Source of the DNA: a virus
Direction: 5' to 3' (one strand)
Length of the DNA: 32,509 bases
IMG/VR virus record: IMGVR_UViG_3300025874_002134
Location: 1 to 32,509 of that record
The notes under the pieces are model-generated. The model was not told the DNA's origin. It did no database searches and saw only the letters and a list, made by a program, of their open reading frames with translations. Positions 7,399-28,133 of the stretch are shown in pieces. Numbering within the stretch: position 1 is the first letter of the stretch; every line of letters starts with the position of its first letter. The position numbers and the translations under genes are program-made.

Positions 7399-8370
7399 TT
7401 ATTTATATATTTTAACCCAATGTTCAATCATTTCATCCATCATACTTTCAAAAGTATATTCTGGGACCCATCCTAATTTTCTAATTTTTGTTGAATCTCC
7501 TTTTAAATAAGGTAATTCTTCAGGCCGTAAAAACTTTGGATTTTGGGTAACATAGTCTTTATAATTTAAGTCTAATTTACTAAATACATAATCACACATT
7601 TCTCTCACTGAATGAGTAACTCCAGTTGATACCACCCAATCACTTGGTTCTGGTTGTTGGTTAATTAAATGCATTGCTCTTATATAATCTTTTGAATGAC
7701 CCCAATCCCTGTAAGCATCCATATTACCTAATTCAAGTGTATCTTGTAATCCTAATTTAATTCTAACAGCAGCTTTTACTACTTTATTAGTTACAAAATT
7801 AGAACCCCTACGAGGTGACTCATGGTTAAATAATATACCACTAGAAGCATGTAATTTATAAGCATTACGATAATTTCTTACAATATTATAGCCAAATACT
7901 TTAGCACAACCATAAGGTGATACTGGGTTCATTCTAGTTGTTTCTCTTTGGAAACCATCTTCATCTACTGCACTACCAAACATTTCTGATGATGATGCTT
8001 GGTAAAATTTAGTATTAGGGCAATTATTACGTACAGCTTCTAATATATTTACAACACCTACAGAATTAGTTTGAACTGTAAATTGGGGTATTTCGTAACT
8101 AATTCTAACGTGAGATTGTGCTGCTAAGTTATATACTTCATCAGGTTTAACTTCCCTTAGAATACGTTCAATACCTGATGTGTCATTTAAATCACCGTAG
8201 CTTACGTGTAAATTTTTATTATTTCGTATTGGGTCTAATCTTGATTGTTGGTGTTCAGGTGTAGAATTTCTTCTAATTATCCCATATACTTCATATCCTA
8301 AATCTAATAAGTATTCAGCTAAATAAGACCCATCTTGTCCTCCTATTCCTGTAATAAATGCTTTTTTCAT
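7399..8370 (-). CDS. gmd: GDP-mannose 4,6-dehydratase
   Basis: A 323-residue extended short-chain dehydrogenase. The NAD(P)-binding motif ITGIGGQDGSYLAEYLL is at residues 6-22, the catalytic SSSEMFG near 125-131, and the YxxxK pair in YGCAKVFGYN near 153. DWGHSKDYI and ESPRRGSNFV are characteristic of GMD. It converts GDP-mannose to GDP-4-keto-6-deoxymannose, the branch point to fucose, rhamnose or perosamine. The upstream DegT aminotransferase overlaps it by 4 bases (ATGA), which suggests a perosamine-like amino-sugar branch. A GDP-heptose 4,6-dehydratase of the Campylobacter type is an alternative, because heptose-type enzymes lie in the same block. Confidence 0.92.
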   Translation of the reverse strand: MKKAFITGIGGQDGSYLAEYLLDLGYEVYGIIRRNSTPEHQQSRLDPIRNNKNLHVSYGDLNDTSGIERILREVKPDEVYNLAAQSHVRISYEIPQFTVQTNSVGVVNILEAVRNNCPNTKFYQASSSEMFGSAVDEDGFQRETTRMNPVSPYGCAKVFGYNIVRNYRNAYKLHASSGILFNHESPRRGSNFVTNKVVKAAVRIKLGLQDTLELGNMDAYRDWGHSKDYIRAMHLINQQPEPSDWVVSTGVTHSVREMCDYVFSKLDLNYKDYVTQNPKFLRPEELPYLKGDSTKIRKLGWVPEYTFESMMDEMIEHWVKIYK

Positions 8371-10331: not shown

Positions 10332-10740
10332 CTAAAAATGTTTTATCTAAAAGCTGACCTTCATAAGGGCCTGTTTTATATTCATATACTAAAGTATTAT
10401 CTTCTAATATTTCATAAGTATGTCCTCCTTCTAAAGTAAAAGAAGCATCCCCAGGTTCTAAAATAGGTTTAACTAAAATAGTATTATCTAAATCATAAAA
10501 TATACATTGAACTTTACCTTGGATTACCACCCAACTTTCTTGAGCTATAACATCTCTAATTCTATTTTTCCAAATATGTCTATGGGGTCTAAATGTTTTA
10601 CCTTTCTCCATATTAAGATGAGAACATTGAATAAAATGTTCTTCTGATATAATATCTTTTCTACCAGGTTTTAGGTCTTCTTTTCTTACTACAACATGTA
10701 ATAATTTATTAGGGTCTTTTTTTGAATAATATTTATCCAT
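10312..10740 (-). CDS. Cupin-fold sugar-cluster protein
   Basis: A 142-residue single-domain cupin. The first metal-type motif is HLNMEKGKTFRPHRHIW (about 42-58), with PHRH as the histidine pair. The second half has LEPGDASFTLEGGHTYEI, with another histidine. Such proteins sit in many O-antigen and capsule clusters, where they act as isomerases or epimerases, or have unproven roles. It lies between a nucleotidyltransferase and a glycosyltransferase, with short overlaps on both sides. A keto-sugar isomerase is plausible but cannot be shown from sequence alone. Confidence 0.7.
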   Translation of the reverse strand: MDKYYSKKDPNKLLHVVVRKEDLKPGRKDIISEEHFIQCSHLNMEKGKTFRPHRHIWKNRIRDVIAQESWVVIQGKVQCIFYDLDNTILVKPILEPGDASFTLEGGHTYEILEDNTLVYEYKTGPYEGQLLDKTFLDEESSN

Positions 10741-11140
10741 TTTTTATATTTTTAGCAATTAAATTTTTAAACTTAGTTGTACTCCACCCATGATCTCTAT
10801 TTAAATAATGAATTGGTATTTTTAAATTATCACCTGTAAATGGTTTGTCAATATAATCATTACCTAAAAATCGAATATTAAATTCACCCATTTTAAGTAA
10901 ATCATATAATTGTTCTTCGTAAGTATATCTAACCACATCATCCACATACCTGATACTTAATAATAATTCTTTACGTTCATCTGTTGATAGTATAGGTTTT
11001 AATTTTTCGGGCCTTTCAATTGAAGGGTCAGTATGGAGTAATACAATAAGACAATCACATTGGCCTTTTGCTTCTTTTAACATTTGAACATATCCTGGAT
11101 GGTATACATCAAAATTACCTGCTATAACTCCTTTTTTCAT
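10733..11140 (-). CDS. Small sugar/glycerol-phosphate nucleotidyltransferase (TagD/HldE-C fold)
   Basis: A 135-residue member of the HxGH nucleotidyltransferase superfamily. GNFDVYHPGYVQML (8-21) is the nucleotide site, and HGWSTTKFKNLI near the C-terminus is the STTK-like motif. The canonical HxGH appears as HPGY, so the second histidine is replaced by tyrosine, which could lower or alter activity. Relatives are glycerol-3-phosphate cytidylyltransferase and the C-terminal domain of HldE (heptose-1-phosphate adenylyltransferase). Its junction with a GmhA-like isomerase (TAATG) favours a heptose-1-phosphate substrate, by inference. Confidence 0.8.
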   Translation of the reverse strand: MKKGVIAGNFDVYHPGYVQMLKEAKGQCDCLIVLLHTDPSIERPEKLKPILSTDERKELLLSIRYVDDVVRYTYEEQLYDLLKMGEFNIRFLGNDYIDKPFTGDNLKIPIHYLNRDHGWSTTKFKNLIAKNIKNG

Positions 11141-11637
11141 TAATTGTCTACTATTGAATGTAATAATATTTCATGTGCTAACTCTACAACTCCATAAGAA
11201 TTATAATTAACATGGTATTTAAAATCAGCATTCATTTGGTTTAATTTATTATTTGGATTAAATCCAGATAATGCAGCATATTTTATATTATTTTCTTCAC
11301 ACCATTTAGCTGCATTTACTATATTCATTGAATTTCCTGATGATGAAATTAATATTACTAAATTATCTTTATCAGCATAATCAGATAAAAATTGTTTATA
11401 AGCTTCATCTCTTCCATAATCATTAATATAAGCAGTTAACATTGGAGCATCCGAGAAAGAAAGTGATTTTTTATTTAAAAATTTGGTATAATCAATACTA
11501 ATATGAGATGCTATAGCATTACTTCCCCCATTACCTATAATAATAATTTTATTATGAGTTTTTACCCATTCCTTTAAAATAGGACTTTTATACTTTATAT
11601 GTTTTTCAATTTCAGTTTGTAAACTATTTAAGTTCAT
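11140..11637 (-). CDS. gmhA: Phosphoheptose isomerase-like SIS protein
   Basis: A 165-residue SIS-domain protein, slightly shorter than typical GmhA (about 190). IIIIGNGGSNAIASHISIDY (31-50) is the phosphosugar loop and LVILISSSGNSMNIV (about 93-107) the second one. ELAHEILLHSIVD at the end matches the GmhA terminal helix. GmhA converts sedoheptulose-7-phosphate to glycero-manno-heptose-7-phosphate. With the kinase at 13624 and the nucleotidyltransferase at 10733, it suggests a partial NDP-heptose pathway. Other SIS sugar isomerases remain possible. Confidence 0.8.
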   Translation of the reverse strand: MNLNSLQTEIEKHIKYKSPILKEWVKTHNKIIIIGNGGSNAIASHISIDYTKFLNKKSLSFSDAPMLTAYINDYGRDEAYKQFLSDYADKDNLVILISSSGNSMNIVNAAKWCEENNIKYAALSGFNPNNKLNQMNADFKYHVNYNSYGVVELAHEILLHSIVDN

Positions 11638-12769
11638 CTAATATCTCTTTTAAATTCTCAATAACATATTCTTGTTCTTTTCTAGTTATTTCAGCATAAA
11701 ATCCTAACCACATACCATTGTTATGGTATTTCATAGTTTGGGGTAGATCTACCGTATCATTATAAGCTGGTTCTACATGAATTGCTTGAATGTCCCACTT
11801 ACAACCTATATTTCTTTTTCTTAATAAATCTACAACTTGATCTCTATTATATTTTTCATCTAGAATTAAGTGAAAATTTTGCCAATTATATCTAGTACAA
11901 TAATTAGGGATAATATTTCCTATTGAAACACCATGATTTTGTAAATGTTCTTTAATTAAATAATTATAATATTCACCTGCTTTATTTCTTAATTCTACCT
12001 CTTCATCAAAAAATCTAATTTGTGATATACCTAAGGCACAAGGAATATCTGCCATTTTAAAATTATTTCCTATAAAATCAAATTGTTCCTTAAGTAAAAA
12101 TTTAGCTTTATCTCTAGCTAAAGGTGAAATATTAGTACCAAAGGCTCTATAAGATCTTAACCATTCTGCTGTGTCTTTATCTCTTACAATAATCATACCC
12201 CCTTCACCTGTTGTTAAACATTTTCTAGCTTGGAATGAATACGTTACTATATTATCAGTATTTCCTATTTTCTTACCCTTATATTCACTACCTAAAGCGC
12301 ATGCTGAGTCTTCTATGATGGGAATATCTAGTTCTTTAAAAGCATCTAAGTCACAAGGAATACCCATTTGATGTACTAAGATAATAGCTTTTGTATTTGG
12401 GGTAATTCTAGATTTTATATCCTCTATATAAGGAACACCATATTCATTTACATCACACCAAACTGGGGTACCACCTGCATTGTTAACTGCAAACCCACTT
12501 GCAACCCAACTCCAAGAAGGGACTATAACTTCATCAGTCGGTTTTAATCTTTTTCCTTTATTAATAGCTAATAACCCCATTTCAATTGCCACAGTTCCAT
12601 TTGATACTGCTATATAATGCCCTTCAGGATCATCGTTATAAGTTTGTATGGAATCTTCAAATTCTTTTATACGAGGACCACCACTAATCCATCTTGATTC
12701 TAATACTTCTTTAATTTTTTCTAATGCTTCTTCTTCTTTGAGATAAGGCTTTCCTAATGGTATTTTCAT
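11624..12769 (-). CDS. DegT/DnrJ/EryC1/StrS aminotransferase, full length
   Basis: A 381-residue PLP-dependent sugar aminotransferase of normal length. Landmarks in order are KIPLGKPYL, SRWISGGPRIKEFE (about 28-41), YIAVSNGTVAIEMGL, DEVIVPSWSWVASGFAV (80-96), IPIIEDSACALGSEYKG with the PLP-ring aspartate, and SFQARKCLTTGEGGMI with the Schiff-base lysine. It makes an amino sugar from a nucleotide-linked keto sugar using glutamate. The Gfo/Idh/MocA gene just upstream would supply a 3-keto sugar, and acyltransferases lie nearby, as in the WlbA-WlbC-WlbB type pathway. The donor sugar cannot be fixed from sequence. Confidence 0.9.
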   Translation of the reverse strand: MKIPLGKPYLKEEEALEKIKEVLESRWISGGPRIKEFEDSIQTYNDDPEGHYIAVSNGTVAIEMGLLAINKGKRLKPTDEVIVPSWSWVASGFAVNNAGGTPVWCDVNEYGVPYIEDIKSRITPNTKAIILVHQMGIPCDLDAFKELDIPIIEDSACALGSEYKGKKIGNTDNIVTYSFQARKCLTTGEGGMIIVRDKDTAEWLRSYRAFGTNISPLARDKAKFLLKEQFDFIGNNFKMADIPCALGISQIRFFDEEVELRNKAGEYYNYLIKEHLQNHGVSIGNIIPNYCTRYNWQNFHLILDEKYNRDQVVDLLRKRNIGCKWDIQAIHVEPAYNDTVDLPQTMKYHNNGMWLGFYAEITRKEQEYVIENLKEILDELK

Positions 12770-12784
12770 AAATTTATTTTATTT

Positions 12785-13636
12785 TTAGTTATTTATAGTA
12801 TTCATTAATGACCAAATATCTAAAATATTTACATTTGGTTTATACCCCAATATAAAAAACTTTAGTTCAAGATCCAAATTTGACTCGGGAGATGTTTTAA
12901 TTTTTTCACAAGTACCTTCAATAACTTCGTTATTAATGTAATGAGTGTTATCATAATACAAGTCATCATTTTCCCATATAAAACTTCCTTTATCTCCTTT
13001 TATAATAATTTTTCTTTCTTTTATGGGGTAATTCCAAGAAGAATAAAAAGAACCAGATATTTTACCTCTTAATTCTAAATGTAAAGAACTATATTTTATT
13101 GGATCCTTAAAATCTTTATTCCAATATTTATTATATACTTTACACTCACCAAATAAATCTTTATAAATATATAGGTCATGAATCATATAATCTTCTAAAA
13201 CAGAAACATCAGATCTAACTTTAGGACCCATTGATGCTCTAATACTTTTCCAATATTGAGGTTTTCCTATCTTATTTAAATTATTTTTAATATATTGATA
13301 TTCATCTGAGTAAAGAAAAATAAATCCAGGAAAGGCATCTTTTATTTTATGAGCATCATCAACATTAACACCACAGGGTTTTTCAACTAGAATATTTTCT
13401 TGTGGGATATTTAATTGATTTATTATTTTACTATGTAACTTAGCATTTACTGCTAGGATAACATGAGTATATTCAATATCTACATCATTTATATCATTAA
13501 ATAATGGTGTATTAACGTCTATAACAGGTGATGGGTCAACAACACCCACTAATGTATATTTTGAATTTTTTATTGTTTTATACCAATTCTTACCCCAATA
13601 TCCACAACCTACAAGTAATATTTTTATATCTTCCAT
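12785..13636 (-). CDS. Gfo/Idh/MocA family oxidoreductase
   Basis: A 283-residue protein, somewhat shorter than the usual 320-380. The N-terminal Rossmann motif is LLVGCGYWGKNW (7-18). VEKPCGVN (about 84-91) carries the conserved EKP lysine. The later half has VLEDYMIHDLYIYKDLF, matching the catalytic D-x-x-x-H region. These enzymes oxidise or reduce sugars with NAD(P), for example forming 3-keto-UDP-sugars in WlbA/WbpB. Its place before a DegT aminotransferase supports amino-sugar synthesis. It overlaps the GHMP kinase gene by 13 bases. Confidence 0.85.
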   Translation of the reverse strand: MEDIKILLVGCGYWGKNWYKTIKNSKYTLVGVVDPSPVIDVNTPLFNDINDVDIEYTHVILAVNAKLHSKIINQLNIPQENILVEKPCGVNVDDAHKIKDAFPGFIFLYSDEYQYIKNNLNKIGKPQYWKSIRASMGPKVRSDVSVLEDYMIHDLYIYKDLFGECKVYNKYWNKDFKDPIKYSSLHLELRGKISGSFYSSWNYPIKERKIIIKGDKGSFIWENDDLYYDNTHYINNEVIEGTCEKIKTSPESNLDLELKFFILGYKPNVNILDIWSLMNTINN

Positions 13637-14526
13637 GTTTGTACTCCTTTATTATCTATACTAATTAATTTACCTTCTTTAATATTATCCTTACTAAAAA
13701 CAAGAAAATATCCACCTCCACCTGCTCCACATAATTTAATACCCTTAATGTTGTAAGTTGAAAGTAATTTTTTTTCTAGTTTAAAAATTTCATCATTCAT
13801 TATTAAATTAGAAGTTAATTTTTTTCTATTCCAAGCTTTATTAAATATTTCAAAAAATTGTTTTTCATTATTAATATTATCATGAAATTCATCAACTAAC
13901 TGTAGTAAAGGAAAAGATTTAGAAATGTCTAAAGAAGATAAAATCTTAGTAGAAGATCTAGAAATACCAGTTGGAATTAAATAAATTTTGTAATTATTTA
14001 AAACTTTTGATGATATATTTTTTTGTAAAACATAATCAGGATAAAAAATTAATTGCTTTAGCCCCCCTAAAGCACAACCATAAGTATCTTGATAACCAGT
14101 TAATTGGTTAAATTTACGTTCTAGTTGTATGGCTAGTTTTGCTATATCGGCTTGAGAATAATTTATATTTTTAAATTTACAAGCAGCAGATATAGCGGAT
14201 ATTAAATAAGATGATGATGAAGCTAAACCTGACCCACTAGAAGGAATATCACAATTAAAAGTCATAGCTATAGGAGGTAAATTAAAATATTTAATTACTT
14301 CTCTAGCAATATCATTTTCAATTTTATCTGGGGAGTTTACTCTTTCACTTTTACTATAATTAACAATCCAATTATCTGAACTTATATTTTTATTAATTGT
14401 AATATAAGTGTATAAATTGGTGGGGAATGAAATTACAGAACCTATACCATGTTTATCTATAAATTCTTGGAGATCTGTTGATCCCCCTACTAACGAAACT
14501 CTTAAGGGACATTTACTTACTATCAT
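13624..14526 (-). CDS. hddA: GHMP kinase, D-glycero-D-manno-heptose-7-phosphate kinase-like
   Basis: A 300-residue GHMP kinase with all three motifs: KCPLRVSLVGGSTDLQEF (5-22), CDIPSSGSGLASSSSYLI (about 91-108, the phosphate loop) and KLCGAGGGGYFLVF (about 266-279). The N-terminal APLRxSxxGGGTD-like motif is typical of heptose-7-phosphate 1-kinase (HddA) and fucokinase-type enzymes. The neighbouring GmhA-like and nucleotidyltransferase genes favour HddA. Sugar specificity is an inference; the kinase class is certain. Confidence 0.85.
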   Translation of the reverse strand: MIVSKCPLRVSLVGGSTDLQEFIDKHGIGSVISFPTNLYTYITINKNISSDNWIVNYSKSERVNSPDKIENDIAREVIKYFNLPPIAMTFNCDIPSSGSGLASSSSYLISAISAACKFKNINYSQADIAKLAIQLERKFNQLTGYQDTYGCALGGLKQLIFYPDYVLQKNISSKVLNNYKIYLIPTGISRSSTKILSSLDISKSFPLLQLVDEFHDNINNEKQFFEIFNKAWNRKKLTSNLIMNDEIFKLEKKLLSTYNIKGIKLCGAGGGGYFLVFSKDNIKEGKLISIDNKGVQTWKI

Positions 14527-14983
14527 TGTGTTTAGAATAATTTAATAATTTCATTGGAGAACCTACAGCTGTTCTATTATCAGGTATATCTTTATTAACT
14601 AAAGTTAATGCTCCTATAATAACATTATTTCCTATTGTTACTCCTGGTAGAATAATAGAATTTGTACCAATTTGAACATTATTTCCAATTTTTACAGGAG
14701 CTCTATCTATATGATTACCATTAATGGGATCTTTAACTAGATTTTGTTGTCTATATTTTGAAGAGTCATGAGTTAAAACATGTACCCCAGATGAAATGGT
14801 TACATTATCTCCAATTTTTAATCCTCCAGATCCATCAATTAAGCAAAAATACCCAACCCAAACATCTTCACCCAAAATAATATGTTCTTTCCCCCTAACA
14901 ATACTAAAATCATTCCAAGGACCTACTTCATTCTGTAGTTTATCCCATTTTGGTAATCCAGTCATATGTTTTTTTAATCCCAT
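14513..14983 (-). CDS. Hexapeptide-repeat (left-handed beta-helix) acyltransferase
   Basis: A 156-residue protein built of hexapeptide repeats: IILGEDVWVGYFCLIDGS, LKIGDNVTISSGVHVLTHDS (the H of THDS is the usual catalytic histidine region), VKIGNNVQIGTNSIILPG, and VTIGNNVIIGALTLVNKD, ending DNRTAVGSPMKLL. This is the fold of maltose/galactoside O-acetyltransferases and sugar N-acyltransferases. It probably works as a trimer with acetyl-CoA. The ATG at 14983 overlaps the epimerase gene by 44 bases; Met-7 at 14965 is an alternative start. Confidence 0.85.
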   Translation of the reverse strand: MGLKKHMTGLPKWDKLQNEVGPWNDFSIVRGKEHIILGEDVWVGYFCLIDGSGGLKIGDNVTISSGVHVLTHDSSKYRQQNLVKDPINGNHIDRAPVKIGNNVQIGTNSIILPGVTIGNNVIIGALTLVNKDIPDNRTAVGSPMKLLNYSKHNDSK

Positions 14984-15872
14984 TTGTTAAATTAATATTA
15001 TCATTCCACCCCAATTGTTTTAATTTGGAGGTATCACCAACTCTTTTATTTTCAATATCAGTTCTATTCTCAGGAACTATATCAATGTTTAATTTGGTAT
15101 TAGTTACATTTTCAATAGTATTAATTAAATCAGTTAATGTTACTCCGTTTTGTGTTGACACATTAAATACTTCTTTATTAGAATTAAATGTAGTTAAAAT
15201 AATAGCATCAATTACATCATCTATATAAACTAAATCTAATATTTTTTCATCAGGATTCCCAAATACTTTGATATCTTTTATTCCATTTTTAATATTACTT
15301 AACCAATTAAATATTACTTCAGTATATGCTCCTTCACAATCCATCCCAACACCATAAACACTAAAAAATCTATTAATAGTATAATTAAACCCTAACATAT
15401 TATCATAGCTTCTAATTAAGTTTTCAGTATAATATTTCCCAGCTCCATATATTGTATGAGGAGTACATGGGTCTTCTTCTTGTATAGGTTGACGTTTTGG
15501 TTTATTATAAACACTAGCTGTACTAGAAAAGAATAATTTTATATTATTTTTAGCGCAGTAATCAACAACATTAAACCCACCAGATGCAATATAGTTATGT
15601 CCTTCTTTATTATTATGAGCACACCTATTAATTCTGGTAGCTGCTAAATGAAAAAAATGGGTAACATTTTTAATAGTACTAAAATCAAAAGTTGAAACAT
15701 CTCCATATAAAAATTTTATTTTAGGATTATCCTTTATATTTCTTAAACTTTCGGTTCTAACTAAATTATCTATAAGATAAACATTATCAAATCCTTCTTT
15801 TAATAATCTAGTTGATAAATGACCACCAACAAAACCTGCTCCACCACTTATGATTGCATTTTTTCTTTCCAT
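14940..15872 (-). CDS. NAD-dependent sugar epimerase/dehydratase (extended SDR)
   Basis: A 310-residue extended SDR. ISGGAGFVGGHLSTRLL (8-24) is the NAD-binding loop, FFHLAATRINR follows strand 4, and SSTASVYN supplies the catalytic serine region. YGAGKYYTENLIR (about 142-154) holds the YxxxK catalytic pair. INRFFSVYGVGM and LVYIDDVIDAI are typical of UDP-sugar epimerases and dehydratases. The substrate is not determined; UDP-GlcNAc/UDP-Glc 4-epimerase or a dehydratase are the likely choices. It overlaps genes on both sides (25 and 44 bases). Confidence 0.88.
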   Translation of the reverse strand: MERKNAIISGGAGFVGGHLSTRLLKEGFDNVYLIDNLVRTESLRNIKDNPKIKFLYGDVSTFDFSTIKNVTHFFHLAATRINRCAHNNKEGHNYIASGGFNVVDYCAKNNIKLFFSSTASVYNKPKRQPIQEEDPCTPHTIYGAGKYYTENLIRSYDNMLGFNYTINRFFSVYGVGMDCEGAYTEVIFNWLSNIKNGIKDIKVFGNPDEKILDLVYIDDVIDAIILTTFNSNKEVFNVSTQNGVTLTDLINTIENVTNTKLNIDIVPENRTDIENKRVGDTSKLKQLGWNDNINLTNGIKKTYDWITKMG

Positions 15873-16615
15873 AACTTTTTATATTTTTCTAATATTGTTT
15901 TATTAAAATCCTCAAAACCTCCTAAATTACTAGTTGAATAATCAGAAACTCTGTATAGCCAATTAGGTACAGAATCATAATAACCTTTATACTCATTTAA
16001 TAATATTCGTGCCCAATATTCCATATCAGCAGCTCCTTTAAACTTTTTTAAATTTGGTTCACCGATTAATGTGTGTAATTCTTTTCTATAAACTGTACCT
16101 GGGGCAAGTAAAGCATTATTAGCTCTAGTAATCTCATTATTAATAACACCAAACCATTCTTTAAATCTATTTAATGGTTGGGAATAGTCAGGTTTGAACT
16201 CAACTGGGATCATAGGACCTTGTTGGTTTAATATTTCATCTGTCCTAATGCCATTTGCACTATAAAACATAATATCAGGATTCTTTAAATGCTGTATAGC
16301 TTTTTTATAAAAATCTGATGTAAATACGTCATCCTGTCCTGTATTATGGATTATATCTCCTTTAACTAAAGGTAAGGCTCCAACCCAACCCCCACTACAA
16401 ATACCCATTCCAAAATTAAAACTACTATAGTGGTATATTACTTTTTCGTTTATTAAATTTTTAATATCTTCAAAAATTTCTTTATCTCCCTTATCATTAA
16501 ATAAAATATACTGGTAATCTATACCTGCATCTTCTAAGGCATGGATGTTATATCTAACAGATTCATTAACATATGGGTTTGTTTTATATAAATTGTGTAT
16601 TATTGTAATTTTCAT
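15848..16615 (-). CDS. Glycosyltransferase family 2-like (GT-A)
   Basis: A 255-residue GT-A-like protein. The N-terminal MKITIIHNLYKTNPYVNESV resembles GT2 openings, GDIIHNTGQDDVFTSDFYK (about 90-108) places a DxD-like GQDD metal site, and FKGAADMEYWARIL (about 193-206) is the acceptor-side region. It lacks a transmembrane segment and should be cytosolic. It sits between a HAD-acyltransferase fusion and an epimerase, with a 4-base ATGA overlap to the former. Donor and acceptor are unknown. Confidence 0.75.
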   Translation of the reverse strand: MKITIIHNLYKTNPYVNESVRYNIHALEDAGIDYQYILFNDKGDKEIFEDIKNLINEKVIYHYSSFNFGMGICSGGWVGALPLVKGDIIHNTGQDDVFTSDFYKKAIQHLKNPDIMFYSANGIRTDEILNQQGPMIPVEFKPDYSQPLNRFKEWFGVINNEITRANNALLAPGTVYRKELHTLIGEPNLKKFKGAADMEYWARILLNEYKGYYDSVPNWLYRVSDYSTSNLGGFEDFNKTILEKYKKLWKEKMQS

Positions 16616-17367
16616 TGTGCTGGGTTTCCTTTTACTGTTGTGTTATCAGGTATATCTTTTGTTACTACTGATCCTGCTCCTATTATTACATTATTTCCTA
16701 TATTTACTGGTAAAATTGTAGCATTAGATCCAATTCTAACATTATTTCCTATTTTTGTTTTACGTTCTACCCAATTTGATTTTTCTTCAGTAAATTTATC
16801 ATTTACAAACATTACACCATGAGCTATAAAACAATTATCACCAATTTCTACACTTGAACATACAAAGGAATGTGACGAAATCCTAGTATTTTCGCCAATA
16901 ATGCTGCGTTCTTGTATTTCAACAAATGGACCTATAAATACATTATCTTTAATAACACAACCATATAAATTTACAGGTTGTATTATTTTAACATTTTTAC
17001 CCAAGATAACATTTGGCATATCATTAGGAAATATTTCTTCTATTCTTTTAGCTTTATCATCAATAACCATATCAAAACTTCCTTTATCTTTTCCAATTAT
17101 TAAATCATGAAATTTACATCCCCAAGTATTTAATTGTTTTAAAGTATGTTCTTTATAATCAATATTTGAAGATGATCCTCTTGCTGTCCAGTAAACTATT
17201 TTCCATCCTTCATCATATAATCTATTAATTTTAGAAATATTTTTAGGATTAGGTTGGGATAAGTTATATTTTCTTACGTCATCATAAAAACATATAGTTT
17301 CATCAATATCAACATAAGCTGTTTTTTGTTTATCTGAATATAATTTTGCTGTTTTAAATTTTTGCAT
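16612..17367 (-). CDS. Fusion: HAD phosphatase domain + hexapeptide acyltransferase
   Basis: A 251-residue two-domain protein. Residues 16-110 are a HAD hydrolase of the capsule-cluster type: YVDIDETICFYDD (motif I, D-x-D-x-T), YWTARGSSS (motif II), and DKGSFDMVIDDKAKRI (motif III/IV). Residues about 118-251 are a left-handed beta-helix: VILGKNVKI, CVIKDNVFIGPFVEI, SVEIGDNCFIAHGVMF, TKIGNNVRIGSNATILP, VNIGNNVIIGAGSVVTKD and DNTTVKGNPAQ, similar to WbpD/WlbB N-acetyltransferases. The catalytic residues of both halves look intact. It may pair dephosphorylation and acetylation of one sugar intermediate; that link is inference. Confidence 0.85.
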   Translation of the reverse strand: MQKFKTAKLYSDKQKTAYVDIDETICFYDDVRKYNLSQPNPKNISKINRLYDEGWKIVYWTARGSSSNIDYKEHTLKQLNTWGCKFHDLIIGKDKGSFDMVIDDKAKRIEEIFPNDMPNVILGKNVKIIQPVNLYGCVIKDNVFIGPFVEIQERSIIGENTRISSHSFVCSSVEIGDNCFIAHGVMFVNDKFTEEKSNWVERKTKIGNNVRIGSNATILPVNIGNNVIIGAGSVVTKDIPDNTTVKGNPAQ

Positions 17368-17655
17368 TTACCAAATGTTAATTTTACCTCTTAATATATC
17401 CCAAAACATCATCCAATCTGCTAATTTAGCCTTAAGTGGATCATGGAAAGCAGCAGGTTCATTCTTTTCAAAAAGATAATGTCCAGTCCAAGCAAAAGGG
17501 TAAATAATAAAGGGTATAATTGGTATTAAGTATAATATTCTATATCTTAGTATTAATATAGTAAAAATGATAGTAATACACTGACCTATAAAATGTAGTC
17601 TAATACAATTAATATTCTTATGTAATTTTAAATATTTTTTATAATAATCCTTCAT
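17368..17655 (-). CDS. DUF962 / Mpo1-like membrane protein
   Basis: A 95-residue protein matching the DUF962 (yeast Mpo1, YGL010w) family along its full length. YLKLHKNINCIRLHFIGQ (8-25) holds the conserved H-x(n)-N-x(n)-H motif and AWTGHYLFEKNEPAAFHDPL (about 54-73) the second histidine set. DWMMFWDILRGK ends the protein. Two hydrophobic helices (about 22-38 and 41-55) predict membrane insertion. Mpo1 is an iron-dependent dioxygenase in fatty-acid alpha-oxidation; bacterial members are mostly uncharacterised. Its role in a phage carbohydrate block is unknown, perhaps lipid or membrane modification. Confidence 0.82.
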   Translation of the reverse strand: MKDYYKKYLKLHKNINCIRLHFIGQCITIIFTILILRYRILYLIPIIPFIIYPFAWTGHYLFEKNEPAAFHDPLKAKLADWMMFWDILRGKINIW

Positions 17656-18271
17656 AATAATTATTTTGTTTTTCTTGTCGTTTAATATCTTTTGGGTGAT
17701 ATAAAGCTAATTCTTCCTGAGAGGGTAAAGGAGAGTATTGTAAAAAGCCTTCTAGTTTTTCATGTACTTTATTTACCCATTTAATCTCTGGTATATTTTT
17801 CCAAATACGCCATTGATAATCTGGCCAATTTACATAACCTTTTTCATTTATATTCCATCCCCATTTTTGAATATGTTCTTCTGTTAACCCATCTACAGTA
17901 TTAACTCTAGGAACTAAATAAACTTCATTATCTGGGTTAGATTTTAATATAGCTGGGAGGTTTTCTATTAAACTATTATGTGGATATTCATCTGCATCTA
18001 TTTGGAATATATAATCACCATTGCATAATTTAGTTAATAAATTCTTCCAATCAGCAAAGTGTCCTTTAAAATTATCTTCAACCAACTTAATATAATCTTC
18101 AGAACTTAGTTCATGAAGGTAGCTTAGTAATTCAGATGTAGGTTTATTTTTACTTAGATCAACTAATACTACAATTTCATCCTGTTGTCTTTTATTATTT
18201 AACAATAATGAGAGGAGTTTCTGTATTTCAAGAAACTCATCACATACTGTTATTGCATAACTTATTTTCAT
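17639..18271 (-). CDS. Glycosyltransferase family 2 (GT-A)
   Basis: A 210-residue compact GT2 protein. MKISYAITVCDEFLEIQKLL is the nucleotide-binding start, and GDYIFQIDADEYPHNSLIENL (about 90-110) gives the DxD metal site as DAD. VNWPDYQWRIWKN and VHEKLEGF match the WaaE/KdtX-like GT2 subgroup that extends lipopolysaccharide cores. The gene is preceded by an exact TTCGTATATT at 18296-18305, so it may begin a new transcript that reads through the sugar block. It overlaps the DUF962 gene by 17 bases. Confidence 0.85.
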   Translation of the reverse strand: MKISYAITVCDEFLEIQKLLSLLLNNKRQQDEIVVLVDLSKNKPTSELLSYLHELSSEDYIKLVEDNFKGHFADWKNLLTKLCNGDYIFQIDADEYPHNSLIENLPAILKSNPDNEVYLVPRVNTVDGLTEEHIQKWGWNINEKGYVNWPDYQWRIWKNIPEIKWVNKVHEKLEGFLQYSPLPSQEELALYHPKDIKRQEKQNNYYEGLL

Positions 18272-18726: not shown

Positions 18727-20016
18727 TTATTTTTGAAGTTTAGGTAATTTTAATTTTGGCAATTCTAATTTAACTTGTTTAGGGAATTCAGGGATATTTT
18801 TATCTAAAACCTTTTCTATTAATTCCTTCATTTTTTCCCAACTAAAATTAGTTTTAGCATAGTGTCTTTGCTTTTTAGATCTTTGTAGATACTGTTTATA
18901 ACTCTTATAAACTTCTTTTAAAGCACTAATACCTTGTTTTTGGTTTACTTGAAACCATTGAGATTCTTGTATTAACCAATTATTAGCTGCTGATGGGTGG
19001 ACATTCTCTAATTTCCCAGATAATAATACATTATATTCAGAATGTAAAAAATCAATATGACCACTCCACCCAGATGCTATAATTGGTTTACCAGTTAAAC
19101 TAAACTCTAATAAAGGACGACCAAATCCTTCCCCCTTAGTAAAACTCACCATTGCTTTAACTTTAGAATGATTATATAGTTCATTTATTTCAGAATCATC
19201 AAATTCTCCATTTAGTAAATAAATATTTGGTAATTTAGCATCTCCATAATTATCCCTTAAAACTTTAATTTTATCTAAAATGGAATCTCTACTAATATAA
19301 GAAGCAACCCCAGCTGATGCCTTTAATATTAGAGCGGGTTTTTTACCTACTTTATGTCTAAATGCATCATAAAAAGATTTAACTAATACCCCAACATTTT
19401 TTCTATCATGACCTAAATCACCTTGCATCCAATGACCAACAAATAAATAGCAAAATTCTTCTTTAATATCTTTTAGATCAATAGTTTTAATTTCTGATTG
19501 TTTGATAGGTTTATAGGTTGATAAATTTGCTCCTTCAAATATAACTTCAATAGGTTTTTCTAATTTTACAACCCCAACAACCTGACCTGTTCTTTGATCC
19601 TTTTTTTCGTAAGTCATTTTTTCAAAGGTATCCTTAGCAAATTTAGAAGAAACCCAATTCATATCCATTCTATTTAACCCTTCAACCCATTCAGGCTTAC
19701 AAGCAGTAGATTCAATTCCTGCAGTTATACCAATATTATACCTCCCAACAGCCTGAAATTCATTTGGTATAGTAATTTGAGCCCAAATTTCAGGTTGGGT
19801 TTTTTGCCAATCTTGTGGAGCTATGTGATTTAATAAGAATGACCATTCAGGGTGGTCTTTACAAAAACCCCATGAAGTTTCTCCCCATTTTTGGGGTAAA
19901 AGTTGGACTTCATATTTATTTAATTCTATTATTGCTTTGATTTTATCTCTAGAATGAGCTCCATATCCGGAGTAGGAATCAAAGGGTGCTGATATTACAA
20001 ATCTTGGTTTACTCAT
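18727..20016 (-). CDS. GT-B glycosyltransferase (GT4-like)
   Basis: A 429-residue protein. The N-terminal half has FVISAPFDSYSGYGAHSRDK (5-24), a glycine-rich acceptor-side loop. The C-terminal half has VSFTKGEGFGRPLLEFSLTG (about 288-307), with the E-x7-E-like donor-binding segment, followed by KPIIASGWSGHIDFL. This is a retaining GT-B enzyme of the GT4 type. A basic C-terminal tail rich in K, L and P follows. It is paired with another GT-B gene with a one-base overlap. The sugar is unknown. Confidence 0.85.
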   Translation of the reverse strand: MSKPRFVISAPFDSYSGYGAHSRDKIKAIIELNKYEVQLLPQKWGETSWGFCKDHPEWSFLLNHIAPQDWQKTQPEIWAQITIPNEFQAVGRYNIGITAGIESTACKPEWVEGLNRMDMNWVSSKFAKDTFEKMTYEKKDQRTGQVVGVVKLEKPIEVIFEGANLSTYKPIKQSEIKTIDLKDIKEEFCYLFVGHWMQGDLGHDRKNVGVLVKSFYDAFRHKVGKKPALILKASAGVASYISRDSILDKIKVLRDNYGDAKLPNIYLLNGEFDDSEINELYNHSKVKAMVSFTKGEGFGRPLLEFSLTGKPIIASGWSGHIDFLHSEYNVLLSGKLENVHPSAANNWLIQESQWFQVNQKQGISALKEVYKSYKQYLQRSKKQRHYAKTNFSWEKMKELIEKVLDKNIPEFPKQVKLELPKLKLPKLQK

Positions 20017-25422: not shown

Positions 25423-27045
25423 TTACATTCCCATACCCATCATTGGATCCATTTGTGGTTGTTGTTTATCATCACTAGGTTCATCAACTACGGTACATTC
25501 TGTTAGTAATACTGTTCCTGCAACTGAAGCTGCATTTTGTAAAGCTGTTCTAGCTACTTTTGTTGGGTCAATAATACCAGCTTCTTTCATATCAACAGTA
25601 TTATCTGTTTTAATATCAAATCCTAACCAACCATCATTACTTGAATTAACTATCCCATCAGCTATAATTTGTCCTTTAACTGCATCATAACCCGCATTAA
25701 CTAAAATTTGGTTAAATGGTTTGGTACATGCTTGTTTTACGATAGCTGCCCCAGTAGAATTAACTTCTATACCTGATGAAGCATATAATAATGCTGTTCC
25801 ACCTCCAGGTACTATACCTTCTTCAATAGCAGCTTTTGTTGCATGTAATGCATCATCAACTCTATCTTTCTTCTCTCTCATTTCAGTTTCAGTATTTCCA
25901 CCTACATGAATGATTGCTACTCCTCCTGTGAATTTCGCGAGCCTTTCTTGAAGTTTTTCGATTTCGAACGGCGTTGTTGCTTTATTGATTTGTTGCTGTA
26001 ATTCTTCAATACGTGCTTCAATTTGTTCAATTCCTCCTTTTCCATCTACTATTGTTGTTTCTTCTTTTCCTATTGTTGCTGTTCTAGCTTCTCCAAACCA
26101 TTCCCAAGAAAATTTGTCAAGCTTCATTCCTTTTTGTTTATCAAATACCATTCCACCAGTAGTAACAGCAATATCTTCTAATACTAATTTACGTCTATCA
26201 CCAAAATCTGGGGCTTTTACAGCACATACTTTCATTGTACCTCTCATTTTATTAACAATAAGAGTTGCTAGCGCCTCATTATCAATATCTTCAGCAATAA
26301 TCAACAATGATTTTGCTTGTGCTGATACTGCTTCTAAAATAGGTAATAATTCTTTTACATGAGTAATTTTTTGATCTGCAATAAGAATTAGAGGGTTATC
26401 TAACGTAGCAGTCATATTATTATTATTAGTAACAAAATATGGTGATTTATAACCTCTATCAAACTGTAACCCTTCAACAGTCTCTAAGTATGTTTCACCT
26501 GTACGTGATTCTTCAATATGAACAACACCTTCTAATCCTACTTTTTCTATTGCGGTTGCAATTAATTTCCCAGTTTCAGGATCATTATTAGCAGAAATTG
26601 TCGCGATTTGTTCTAATTGTTCTTCACCTGAAATATCCTCTGATATATTATTTCTAAGATTATCAACTATTTTTGCTACAGTTGAGTCAATATCTCTTTT
26701 AATCTGTACTGCATTTTCATTATTATTTAATGCATTTAATCCAGCTTTTACCATTTCACGTGCTAATAAAGTAGATGTTGTTGTACCATCACCTGCTTTT
26801 TCAGCCGTTTTAATAGCAGCTTGTTTTACTAACTGTACACCTAATTCTTGATTAGGATCTGGTAGTGTAATTGATTTAGCTACTGTAACTCCATCTTTGG
26901 TTGATTGTGGTACTCCTTGAGGATTAGAAATTACTACATTTCTACCATTAGGACCTAATGTTGACACCACAGCATCTGCTAAAATATCTATTCCTTTTAC
27001 TAAATTTTCTCGGGCTGTTGAGCCTAGTGTAACTTGTTTACTCAT
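25423..27045 (-). CDS. groEL: Chaperonin GroEL (60 kDa), full length
   Basis: A 540-residue group I chaperonin, close to the usual 545. Equatorial ATP-site motifs are intact: STLGPNGRNVVI (28-39), TKDGVTVAKSI (about 49-59) and GDGTTTSTLLAREMV (about 85-99). The late VDDALHATKAAIEEGIVPGG holds the catalytic aspartate, and the tail is a short MMGMGM in place of the long GGM repeat. The apical domain (about 190-375) is present. It should assemble with the adjacent GroES to fold phage proteins. Phage-encoded GroEL is known in some marine and jumbo phages but rare in T4-like genomes. It overlaps GroES by 8 bases. Confidence 0.97.
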   Translation of the reverse strand: MSKQVTLGSTARENLVKGIDILADAVVSTLGPNGRNVVISNPQGVPQSTKDGVTVAKSITLPDPNQELGVQLVKQAAIKTAEKAGDGTTTSTLLAREMVKAGLNALNNNENAVQIKRDIDSTVAKIVDNLRNNISEDISGEEQLEQIATISANNDPETGKLIATAIEKVGLEGVVHIEESRTGETYLETVEGLQFDRGYKSPYFVTNNNNMTATLDNPLILIADQKITHVKELLPILEAVSAQAKSLLIIAEDIDNEALATLIVNKMRGTMKVCAVKAPDFGDRRKLVLEDIAVTTGGMVFDKQKGMKLDKFSWEWFGEARTATIGKEETTIVDGKGGIEQIEARIEELQQQINKATTPFEIEKLQERLAKFTGGVAIIHVGGNTETEMREKKDRVDDALHATKAAIEEGIVPGGGTALLYASSGIEVNSTGAAIVKQACTKPFNQILVNAGYDAVKGQIIADGIVNSSNDGWLGFDIKTDNTVDMKEAGIIDPTKVARTALQNAASVAGTVLLTECTVVDEPSDDKQQPQMDPMMGMGM

Positions 27046-27349
27046 CGTCTTTTTTTTCTTTTTTATTAATTTTTGCTAAAATTTGATTTTCAGGTCCAAC
27101 ATAGTATTCTTCCCCATTATAAGGTAATTTAGTAAATCCTTGGGTTGGTAAAATCACTTTTTCTCCAACTTTTAAAGTTGTAGAGATAAAATCCCCAGTT
27201 AAAGTTGATTGTCCAGGCCCTACTGAAATTACAATACCAGTTTCATTTTTTTCTTTCCCTAAGTCAGGGACAATAATGTTACCAACAGTAGTTTCTTCTG
27301 ATTCTATTGGTTTTACAATAACAGCGTTAAATAGCGCTTCTAATTCCAT
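27038..27349 (-). CDS. groES: Co-chaperonin GroES
   Basis: A 103-residue GroES-like protein. NAVIVKPIESEETTVGNIIV (8-27) includes the mobile loop that docks onto GroEL. The usual GG-I of this loop reads GN-I here, a change that may tune partner choice. PDLGKEKNETGIVISVGPGQ and KVGEKVILPTQGFTKLPYNGEEYYV are the beta-barrel body. A charged tail, KKEKKDDE, extends beyond the normal end. It probably forms the cap for the GroEL encoded just downstream. Confidence 0.9.
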   Translation of the reverse strand: MELEALFNAVIVKPIESEETTVGNIIVPDLGKEKNETGIVISVGPGQSTLTGDFISTTLKVGEKVILPTQGFTKLPYNGEEYYVGPENQILAKINKKEKKDDE

Positions 27350-27644
27350 TTGTATAATTTTTAATGTTAGTACTTATTTTTATATAATTGTTAATATATT
27401 CTTCTAAACTATCAAAATTTTCTATATCCGCCTTTAGAGTAGCTATTTTTTGTAATGCATGTTCAAATTTGGCATAGTAATATAATGATTTTTCATAGGT
27501 TTTTGCTTTACCCTTAGCCCTAAAATGAGAGGCATCAGATGTTACATTTTGTTTTACAGTATAACTGTATTCATCCTTAGTAATAAAGAATGGTTCTAGC
27601 AAAGGGTCGGTAATAGTCTGGATAGACTTTCTTTTTGTTGTCAT
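27327..27644 (-). CDS. Hypothetical protein before groES
   Basis: A 105-residue basic protein: LEPFFITKDEYSYTVKQNVT (16-35), SHFRAKGKAKTYEKSLYYYA (about 39-58), then an all-helical end with SLEEYINNYIKI. No family was recognised. The exact TTCGTATATT at 27667-27676 lies 22 bases before the ATG, so this gene appears to lead the groES-groEL transcript. It overlaps groES by 23 bases. Confidence 0.7.
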   Translation of the reverse strand: MTTKRKSIQTITDPLLEPFFITKDEYSYTVKQNVTSDASHFRAKGKAKTYEKSLYYYAKFEHALQKIATLKADIENFDSLEEYINNYIKISTNIKNYTNGIRSAI

Positions 27645-27666
27645 ATAACTTATTTATTTAGACGTT

Positions 27667-27676
27667 AATATACGAA
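27667..27676 (-). promoter_or_regulatory. TTCGTATATT promoter-like motif of the chaperonin unit
   Basis: An exact copy on the minus strand between the Hsp20 stop and the ATG at 27644, followed by a leader with TAAATAAATAAGTTAT. It would drive the small gene, groES, groEL and perhaps the H1-like gene. Confidence 0.6.
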
Positions 27677-27713
27677 TAATATTGCGCTAGGACACGCTTT
27701 TTTTGTAAAACTT

Positions 27714-28133
27714 TTATTTTATTTTAATTGTTTTTGCTTTTTTAGATTCCGCAATTGGAATAAATAGATGAAGCAAACCATCTTTCATTTCTGCCTCTAA
27801 TTTCTCAAGTTCGAATTTAGCTGCTACTTTGTAACCTAAGTTAAAAGACCGTTTAGCTAATCCTTTATAGATGTAGCCACTATAATCAAAATCTTCTTCA
27901 TTAGGTTTATCATAGATAATTTTTAAAAGATCTCCATCTATTTCTAGTTGAATGTCTTTTTTAGTTAGACCAGTACAGGCAACTTCAAAATGAAGTCCGT
28001 CTTCGTCATAAAAAATATCTAGTGGGTGAGGTTGTTTGTTTTCAAACGTTGTTGGTTGGAAAACGCCGTCTGCCTTGAATAGGTTACGGAATAGTAAGTC
28101 GAACGGTGTACGTTCATTGAATAATGTACTCAT
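27714..28133 (-). CDS. Small heat-shock protein Hsp20 (alpha-crystallin family)
   Basis: A 139-residue Hsp20. The N-terminus is TPFDLLFRNLFKADG (9-23). The alpha-crystallin domain starts near HPLDIFYDEDGLHFEVACTG (36-55) and includes LTKKDIQLEIDGDLLKI and KRSFNLGYKV. The signature A-x-x-x-n-G-L-L appears as AEMKDGLLHLFIP (about 114-126). The C-terminal tail ESKKAKTIKIK holds an I-x-I. Hsp20 genes are typical of marine T4-like phages, where a role in virion assembly or stress is assumed. The long 5' leader carries a UUCG hairpin. Confidence 0.93.
   Translation of the reverse strand: MSTLFNERTPFDLLFRNLFKADGVFQPTTFENKQPHPLDIFYDEDGLHFEVACTGLTKKDIQLEIDGDLLKIIYDKPNEEDFDYSGYIYKGLAKRSFNLGYKVAAKFELEKLEAEMKDGLLHLFIPIAESKKAKTIKIK

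Follow-up and report, generated by a model that had tools for sequence, protein, structure and literature searches.

The gene at positions 17368-17655 of the window, a stretch of 32,509 bases from a virus record, is real and under selection; its product is a membrane protein of the short Mpo1-like form, and the clade formed by this protein and its relatives is found mainly in phages. Many uncultivated tailed phages carry such a protein, usually within a block of sugar-building genes. Auxiliary sugar genes are familiar in phages; for a conserved and widespread phage protein whose homology predicts oxidation of membrane lipids, we found no description in the open-access library searched, in which papers on DUF962, Mpo1 and YGL010W/COG4539 were judged largely by title. 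The same library yielded no paper that combines phages, 2-hydroxy fatty acids and auxiliary metabolic genes. In the portions accessible to us, PMC10653896 lists DUF962 in an Acinetobacter expression table without bearing on phages, and PMC13332142 has no bearing on phages either. With 95 residues, the minimal phage form offers a handle on the function of short DUF962 proteins across bacteria.

The window gene and its gene block

The open reading frame lies on the minus strand and starts with ATG. Its 95-aa product belongs to Pfam family PF06127 (Mpo1-like, formerly DUF962; E 5e-26, 91.1 bits, cut-off 24), as the initial annotation had proposed. The match runs from residue 2 to residue 92 of the protein and covers positions 5-95 of the 95-position profile, and no other family matched. 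Search of NCBIfam profiles returned neither match nor name for this protein.

The start of the gene overlaps an upstream glycosyltransferase gene by 17 bases and its stop abuts the downstream gene with zero gap. Genes of the block are listed below.

17368..17655, minus strand: Mpo1-like (PF06127) short-form membrane protein, 95 aa; conserved H12, H21, H59, E63, K64, N65, P67, A68, D80 (Pfam, AF2, alignment)
17639..18271, minus strand: family-2 glycosyltransferase (PF00535, E 1.1e-9)
16612..17367, minus strand: HAD-like phosphatase N-terminus fused to hexapeptide (sugar acetyltransferase-like) C-terminus, 251 aa (profile matches)
15848..16615, minus strand: weak family-2 glycosyltransferase match (below cut-off)
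14940..15872, minus strand: NAD-dependent sugar epimerase/dehydratase (SDR; best NCBIfam match galE, then ADP-heptose epimerase, both below cut-off)
14513..14983, minus strand: hexapeptide acyltransferase (profile match)
13624..14526, minus strand: GHMP kinase (best NCBIfam match HddA heptose-7-phosphate kinase, 91 bits, cut-off 600)
12785..13636, minus strand: GFO/IDH/MocA oxidoreductase
11624..12769, minus strand: DegT/DnrJ sugar aminotransferase
11140..11637, minus strand: SIS-domain isomerase (best NCBIfam match GmhA, 58 bits, cut-off 209)
10733..11140, minus strand: cytidylyltransferase-like, between glycerol-3-P cytidylyltransferase and HldE domain II (below cut-offs)
7399..8370, minus strand: GDP-mannose 4,6-dehydratase-like SDR (384 bits, cut-off 415)
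18727..20016, minus strand: group-1 glycosyltransferase-like (just below Pfam cut-off)

The window has a GC content of 29%, and matches to phage DNA polymerase and exonuclease in it make its phage setting sound. Nearest relatives of individual proteins do not point to a single host: GroEL is 60% identical to GroEL of Flavobacterium phage immuto, the polymerase is nearest to that of Microcystis phage Mel-JY01 (34%), and the clamp loader matches an uncultured phage (43%), Mel-JY01 (39%) and Pelagibacter phage HTVC008M (38%).

The AF2 model of the Mpo1-like protein (pLDDT 94.6) consists of helices 2-11, 15-37, 41-50, 52-63 and 73-88, which we read as one probable membrane hairpin with flanking helices. 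H21 falls close to where helix 15-37 begins and H59 close to where helix 52-63 ends; if these helices pair as a hairpin, such positions would bring both histidines to the same membrane face. Judged from the helix ends, the model is compatible with histidines clustered as a metal site. Fold search against PDB gave a single match (E 8.0) and that against VIA none, and sequence search of PDB found no solved relative.

Relatives in viruses and cells

Scanning IMG/VR with the single sequence detected 54 distinct loci. When alignment A1 was used instead, 189 of 264 stretches were confirmed, and the best 80 of these 189 were taken, 52 of them new. At least 106 viral loci and the window were thereby collected and reduced to 90 dereplicated loci (less than 95% identity of the Mpo1-like protein). 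Locus L061, binned in a MAG, is a phage contig, since its neighbours match viral gene clusters at 37-84%; together with the 90 loci it makes up 91 viral rows. Excluded from tree and residue counts were L128, L130 and L153 (same genes as L056, L062 and L058), L147 (a different short type, scoring 23 bits), L149 (which has lost its start) and L074 (without an ORF hit).

H12, H21 and H59 are each present in 91/91 viral rows. N65, P67 and D80 are likewise found in 91/91, E63 in 90/91 and K64 in 83/91. The initial annotation held that all histidine motifs of the family are present; this is correct for these three invariant ones, but not for H71, whose position is occupied by histidine in just 6/91 viral rows. 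Nor are the three histidines lost in cellular short rows (H12 in 27/28, H21 and H59 in 28/28). Conservation exceeds what is expected by chance, as 27 columns are invariant in a 23-row alignment and median dN/dS (Nei-Gojobori) is 0.096 over the 32 pairs with dS <1.5, the other 35 of 67 compared pairs being saturated or without dS.

These data bear on the reading that the protein is non-catalytic, either an anchor of a glycosyltransferase complex or a superinfection-exclusion protein. It is indeed small and helical, and its gene overlaps a glycosyltransferase gene. An anchor, however, would not need histidines and an EKNxPA segment that are nearly invariant in viral and cellular sequences, and purifying selection is strong; we therefore consider a non-catalytic role very improbable.

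Is the gene also present in isolated phages? Using tblastn against INPHARED (50,697 records), two matches were retrieved, both named "Acinetobacter phage MD-2021a". One of them (L127, CAKLQF020000007.1) was rejected as an isolate phage because CRISPR type I-F and ordinary chromosomal genes lie alongside; it is probably a misfiled bacterial chromosome contig. The second record was rejected on its shared name and like match. Among genuine isolate phages in INPHARED no match was thus found, and the window protein likewise had no match in PHROGs and 0 matches in the BFVD fold search. Since the gene is frequent in environmental contigs and absent from these collections, phage annotation libraries miss it. 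As to plasmids, 12 of 72,556 records match, and the five matches listed are all annotated as DUF962 and located on large bacterial replicons.

To estimate relationship between viral and cellular forms, a phylogenetic tree was constructed (119 rows, 95 columns, supported by SH-aLRT only, with 55 of 116 inner branches open). All 91 viral rows fall into one clade together with five chromosomal rows, three from SAR92/Porticoccaceae and two from Neomarinimicrobiota (SH-aLRT 99, branch length 1.62). The remaining 23 cellular rows lie outside this phage-dominated clade. As the scan patterns were built from viral sequences, viral members located elsewhere in PF06127 would be missed. In the GTDB scan, 19 of 62 stretches were confirmed.

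L056-L060, the chromosomal members of the phage-type clade in MAGs of Neomarinimicrobiota and SAR92/Porticoccaceae, may stem from phage-to-host transfer or from the reverse. PF06127 occurs in 2/100 genomes of the phylum of G001, the genome carrying L056, and this rarity suggests that the L056 copy may come from a phage. Leaving aside the phage contig L061, the loci of the GTDB scan share no sugar neighbours with viral loci, save two weak matches (31% and 25%). The ten searched neighbours of L056 and L058-L060 are an ion channel, a Y-family polymerase, a short-chain dehydrogenase, a subtilase, Bax1-I, an amidase, an amidohydrolase, a PD40 protein, a DUF885 protein and a molybdopterin oxidoreductase.

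Bacterial short-form DUF962 proteins (Bacteroidota, Bdellovibrionota, Pseudomonadota) resemble the phage form in length and in H12, H21, H59, E63, K64, N65 and P67. In contrast, they are separated from it by the long branch described above and do not share its sugar neighbours. The phage clade is further marked by the sequence YPFAW, where cellular short-form rows mostly have YG.AW, and by invariant T28, P53, A76 and K77, which are absent from most cellular rows.

The family consists of two size classes. Matches are present in 56 of 149 Bacteroidia genomes, many of which have two; one class aligns over about 95 residues, mostly with more than 100 bits, and the other over about 150 residues with about 60-78 bits. 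Long forms contain H-x-N-x6-H and GH-x2-E-x-[KR]-x-P in 11/11 cases (10 distinct, two rows being one gene). The wide spacing of histidine motifs typical of their architecture is not found in the phage protein: H21 and H59 are 37-47 residues apart in short forms versus 92-102 in long forms, so that 50-60 residues present in the latter are missing in between. Yeast Mpo1 (YGL010W), with about 174 aa, appears to be of the long type. It presumably has a similar N-terminal histidine pair and a GH..FEK..PA-like motif. The link to the yeast enzyme drawn in the initial annotation thus stands as far as the Pfam family is concerned, whereas the phage protein, with 95 aa and no middle segment, is of the short class and its yeast relative appears long. 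Mpo1, an Fe(II)-dependent 2-hydroxy fatty acid dioxygenase, gives PF06127 its name; it is named an Fe(II)-dependent dioxygenase in PMC9624242, and titles in the reference list of PMC10864336 also deal with it. Because of the two size classes, we keep membership in PF06127 apart from the designation "2-hydroxy fatty acid dioxygenase". We know of no assay on any short-form DUF962 protein.

The Mpo1 name might mislead, if short forms kept fold and metal ligands but differed in the reaction catalysed, with a lipid-linked sugar or some other membrane lipid as an example of the substrate. Long and short classes, often both in one Bacteroidia genome, suggest division of labour; the residues peculiar to the phage clade and its linkage to kinase and sugar genes (see below) point the same way. 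On the contrary, the candidate catalytic histidines are common to the long form and no result points to a different substrate. We regard such a change of reaction as rather improbable.

Gene neighbourhood and proposed function

Genes of sugar clusters are located within 6 kb of the Mpo1-like gene in 83/90 loci, and six or more of them in 39/90. The sugar-block setting noticed in the window is therefore right, and it recurs well beyond it. Immediate neighbours lie on the same strand in 168/180 cases, and the gap to the upstream gene is -30 to +20 bases in 75/84. By reading, two of the seven loci without sugar clusters contain glycosyltransferase-like genes (L010) or a piece of kinase (L098). 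Five of 90 loci are outside sugar blocks (L004, L013, L016, L030, L126); in L013 the gene flanks a DnaB-like helicase gene, as determined by search, and L016 has the same gene cluster at this place. Cluster labels derive from one Pfam-searched representative each, with GT4a, GT, Hexa and GHMP labelled from reading the sequence and GT4b and GT11 matching Pfam below cut-off.

Direct adjacency was evaluated by 5000 simulations per gene, with either any gap or only sugar-touching gaps as null, and with loci treated as independent though they are not. The sugar set was here wider than in the 6-kb count, with DUF4254-like, HAD, cupin, rSAM and GT11 added. An HldE-like PfkB kinase occurs in 34/90 loci and is adjacent in 23 of these 34, when 5.0 (any gap) or 7.9 (sugar-touching) are expected; no simulation reached 23. 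SDR genes are adjacent in 44/68 loci (expected 18.3 and 30.0) and DUF4254-like genes in 15/28 (4.2 and 6.5). DegT adjacency (15/55; expected 10.0 and 16.6) is not enriched under the stricter null, and under it no enrichment was seen for RmlC (4/20), CTP_transf (2/13), HAD (2/23), E1b (0/17) and rSAM (1/22) either. PhyH, present in 10/90 loci, is adjacent in five of the 10 (expected 1.6 and 3.1), which is not significant under the sugar-touching null, as 0.13 of simulations reached this count. The five PhyH-adjacent loci are close together in the tree.

Adjacency of the kinase corresponds to 15 state changes on the tree, and genes on the other side differ among loci. It is thus probably not one inherited arrangement, with the reservation that the tree is weak; for its poor resolution, 15 changes are likely too many.

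The sugar block might just be a site for exchangeable accessory genes, in which a lipid-modifying oxygenase travels as cargo without joint action with glycan genes. Five loci outside sugar blocks, neighbours that vary widely among loci, and chromosomal relatives without shared sugar neighbours speak for this possibility. Excess adjacency to the kinase, SDR and DUF4254-like genes, but not to DegT, RmlC or rSAM, and the tight same-strand spacing speak against it, and we consider cargo somewhat unlikely.

Which sugar might be made? Against rfaE_dom_I (cut-off 345) the HldE-like kinase reaches 134 bits, and against rfaE_dom_II (cut-off 181.5) CTP_transf reaches 130 bits. In the window, the SIS and GHMP genes have GmhA and HddA as nearest matches, both far below equivalog cut-off, and no HldE-like kinase lies beside the Mpo1-like gene. 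For these reasons a heptose-type pathway near phage Mpo1-like genes is the best reading of the sequences and not an established one. In PMC7029224, LPS-related genes of pelagimyophages, including rfaE and glycosyltransferases, are read as modifying the O-chain against coinfection. The gene sets described here are alike in combining rfaE-like and glycosyltransferase genes in phage genomes. The terms "fatty acid" and "DUF962" were not found in that paper, and a lipid step would extend its O-chain-modification reading.

The usual location in sugar blocks and homology to the yeast lipid oxidiser suggest that envelope lipids are remodelled along with sugars. As a tentative reading, we propose that the phage protein, as an Fe(II) membrane oxygenase, modifies host lipids at their 2-hydroxy acyl chains while the envelope is being remodelled, alongside the sugar enzymes. 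Embedded in the host inner membrane as a hairpin of helices, it would coordinate Fe(II) through H12, H21 and H59, perhaps joined by E63 or D80, at one face of the membrane. Using O2, it would remove the carboxyl carbon from 2-hydroxy acyl chains (alpha-oxidation) and so alter the acyl make-up of a host envelope lipid. Co-production with phage enzymes for heptose-type and other activated sugars could change surface lipid and glycan in one programme, for example against superinfection. What we observe is membership of the family, the invariant residues, the modelled helices, purifying selection, the setting of the gene and the recurrent kinase neighbour; iron, oxygen, substrate and a role in envelope remodelling we infer.

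The oxygenase reading is favoured by the PF06127 match, the histidine pattern common to long forms, the low dN/dS, the tight sugar setting and kinase adjacency. Against it count the 50-60 missing residues, lack of an NCBIfam name and of a solved relative, the five non-sugar loci and the chromosomal forms without sugar neighbours. The last two also weaken the link to lipid or membrane-attached glycans suggested in the initial annotation, which was drawn from gene position; its sugar setting holds.

A more specific version of the oxygenase reading, which we consider improbable, is that the phage-dominated short Mpo1 clade trims 2-hydroxy acyl chains of LPS or other envelope lipids while the glycan is rebuilt by phage enzymes for heptose and deoxy-sugars encoded next to it. 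PhyH could, in one lineage, supply the 2-hydroxy group, which would amount to a two-step phage alpha-oxidation.

Other genes of the phage loci

Several further genes were observed near Mpo1-like genes. A PhyH-type oxygenase is encoded directly beside in L088 (6285-7154), L090 (1737-2615), L091, L098 and L108. The DUF4254-like neighbour, found in 28/90 loci (e.g. L050:4843-5250 and L034:4871-5278), is a protein of 136 aa with a sub-threshold match to DUF4254 and no match in PHROGs.

Among the 90 loci, 20 encode an E1-like protein of about 203 aa and 17 a transketolase-pyrimidine-like protein of about 179 aa, which make up a split pair of short TPP-enzyme genes (examples are L044:8955-9563 and L109:3022-3558). 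To judge by these lengths, the pair may form a minimal TPP enzyme of two subunits that serves sugar building.

In the window itself, an HAD-like phosphatase domain and a hexapeptide acyltransferase domain are joined in the single 251-aa protein encoded at 16612-17367. Genes for phage GroEL (540 aa), GroES (103 aa) and Hsp20 (139 aa) are clustered at 25423-28133.
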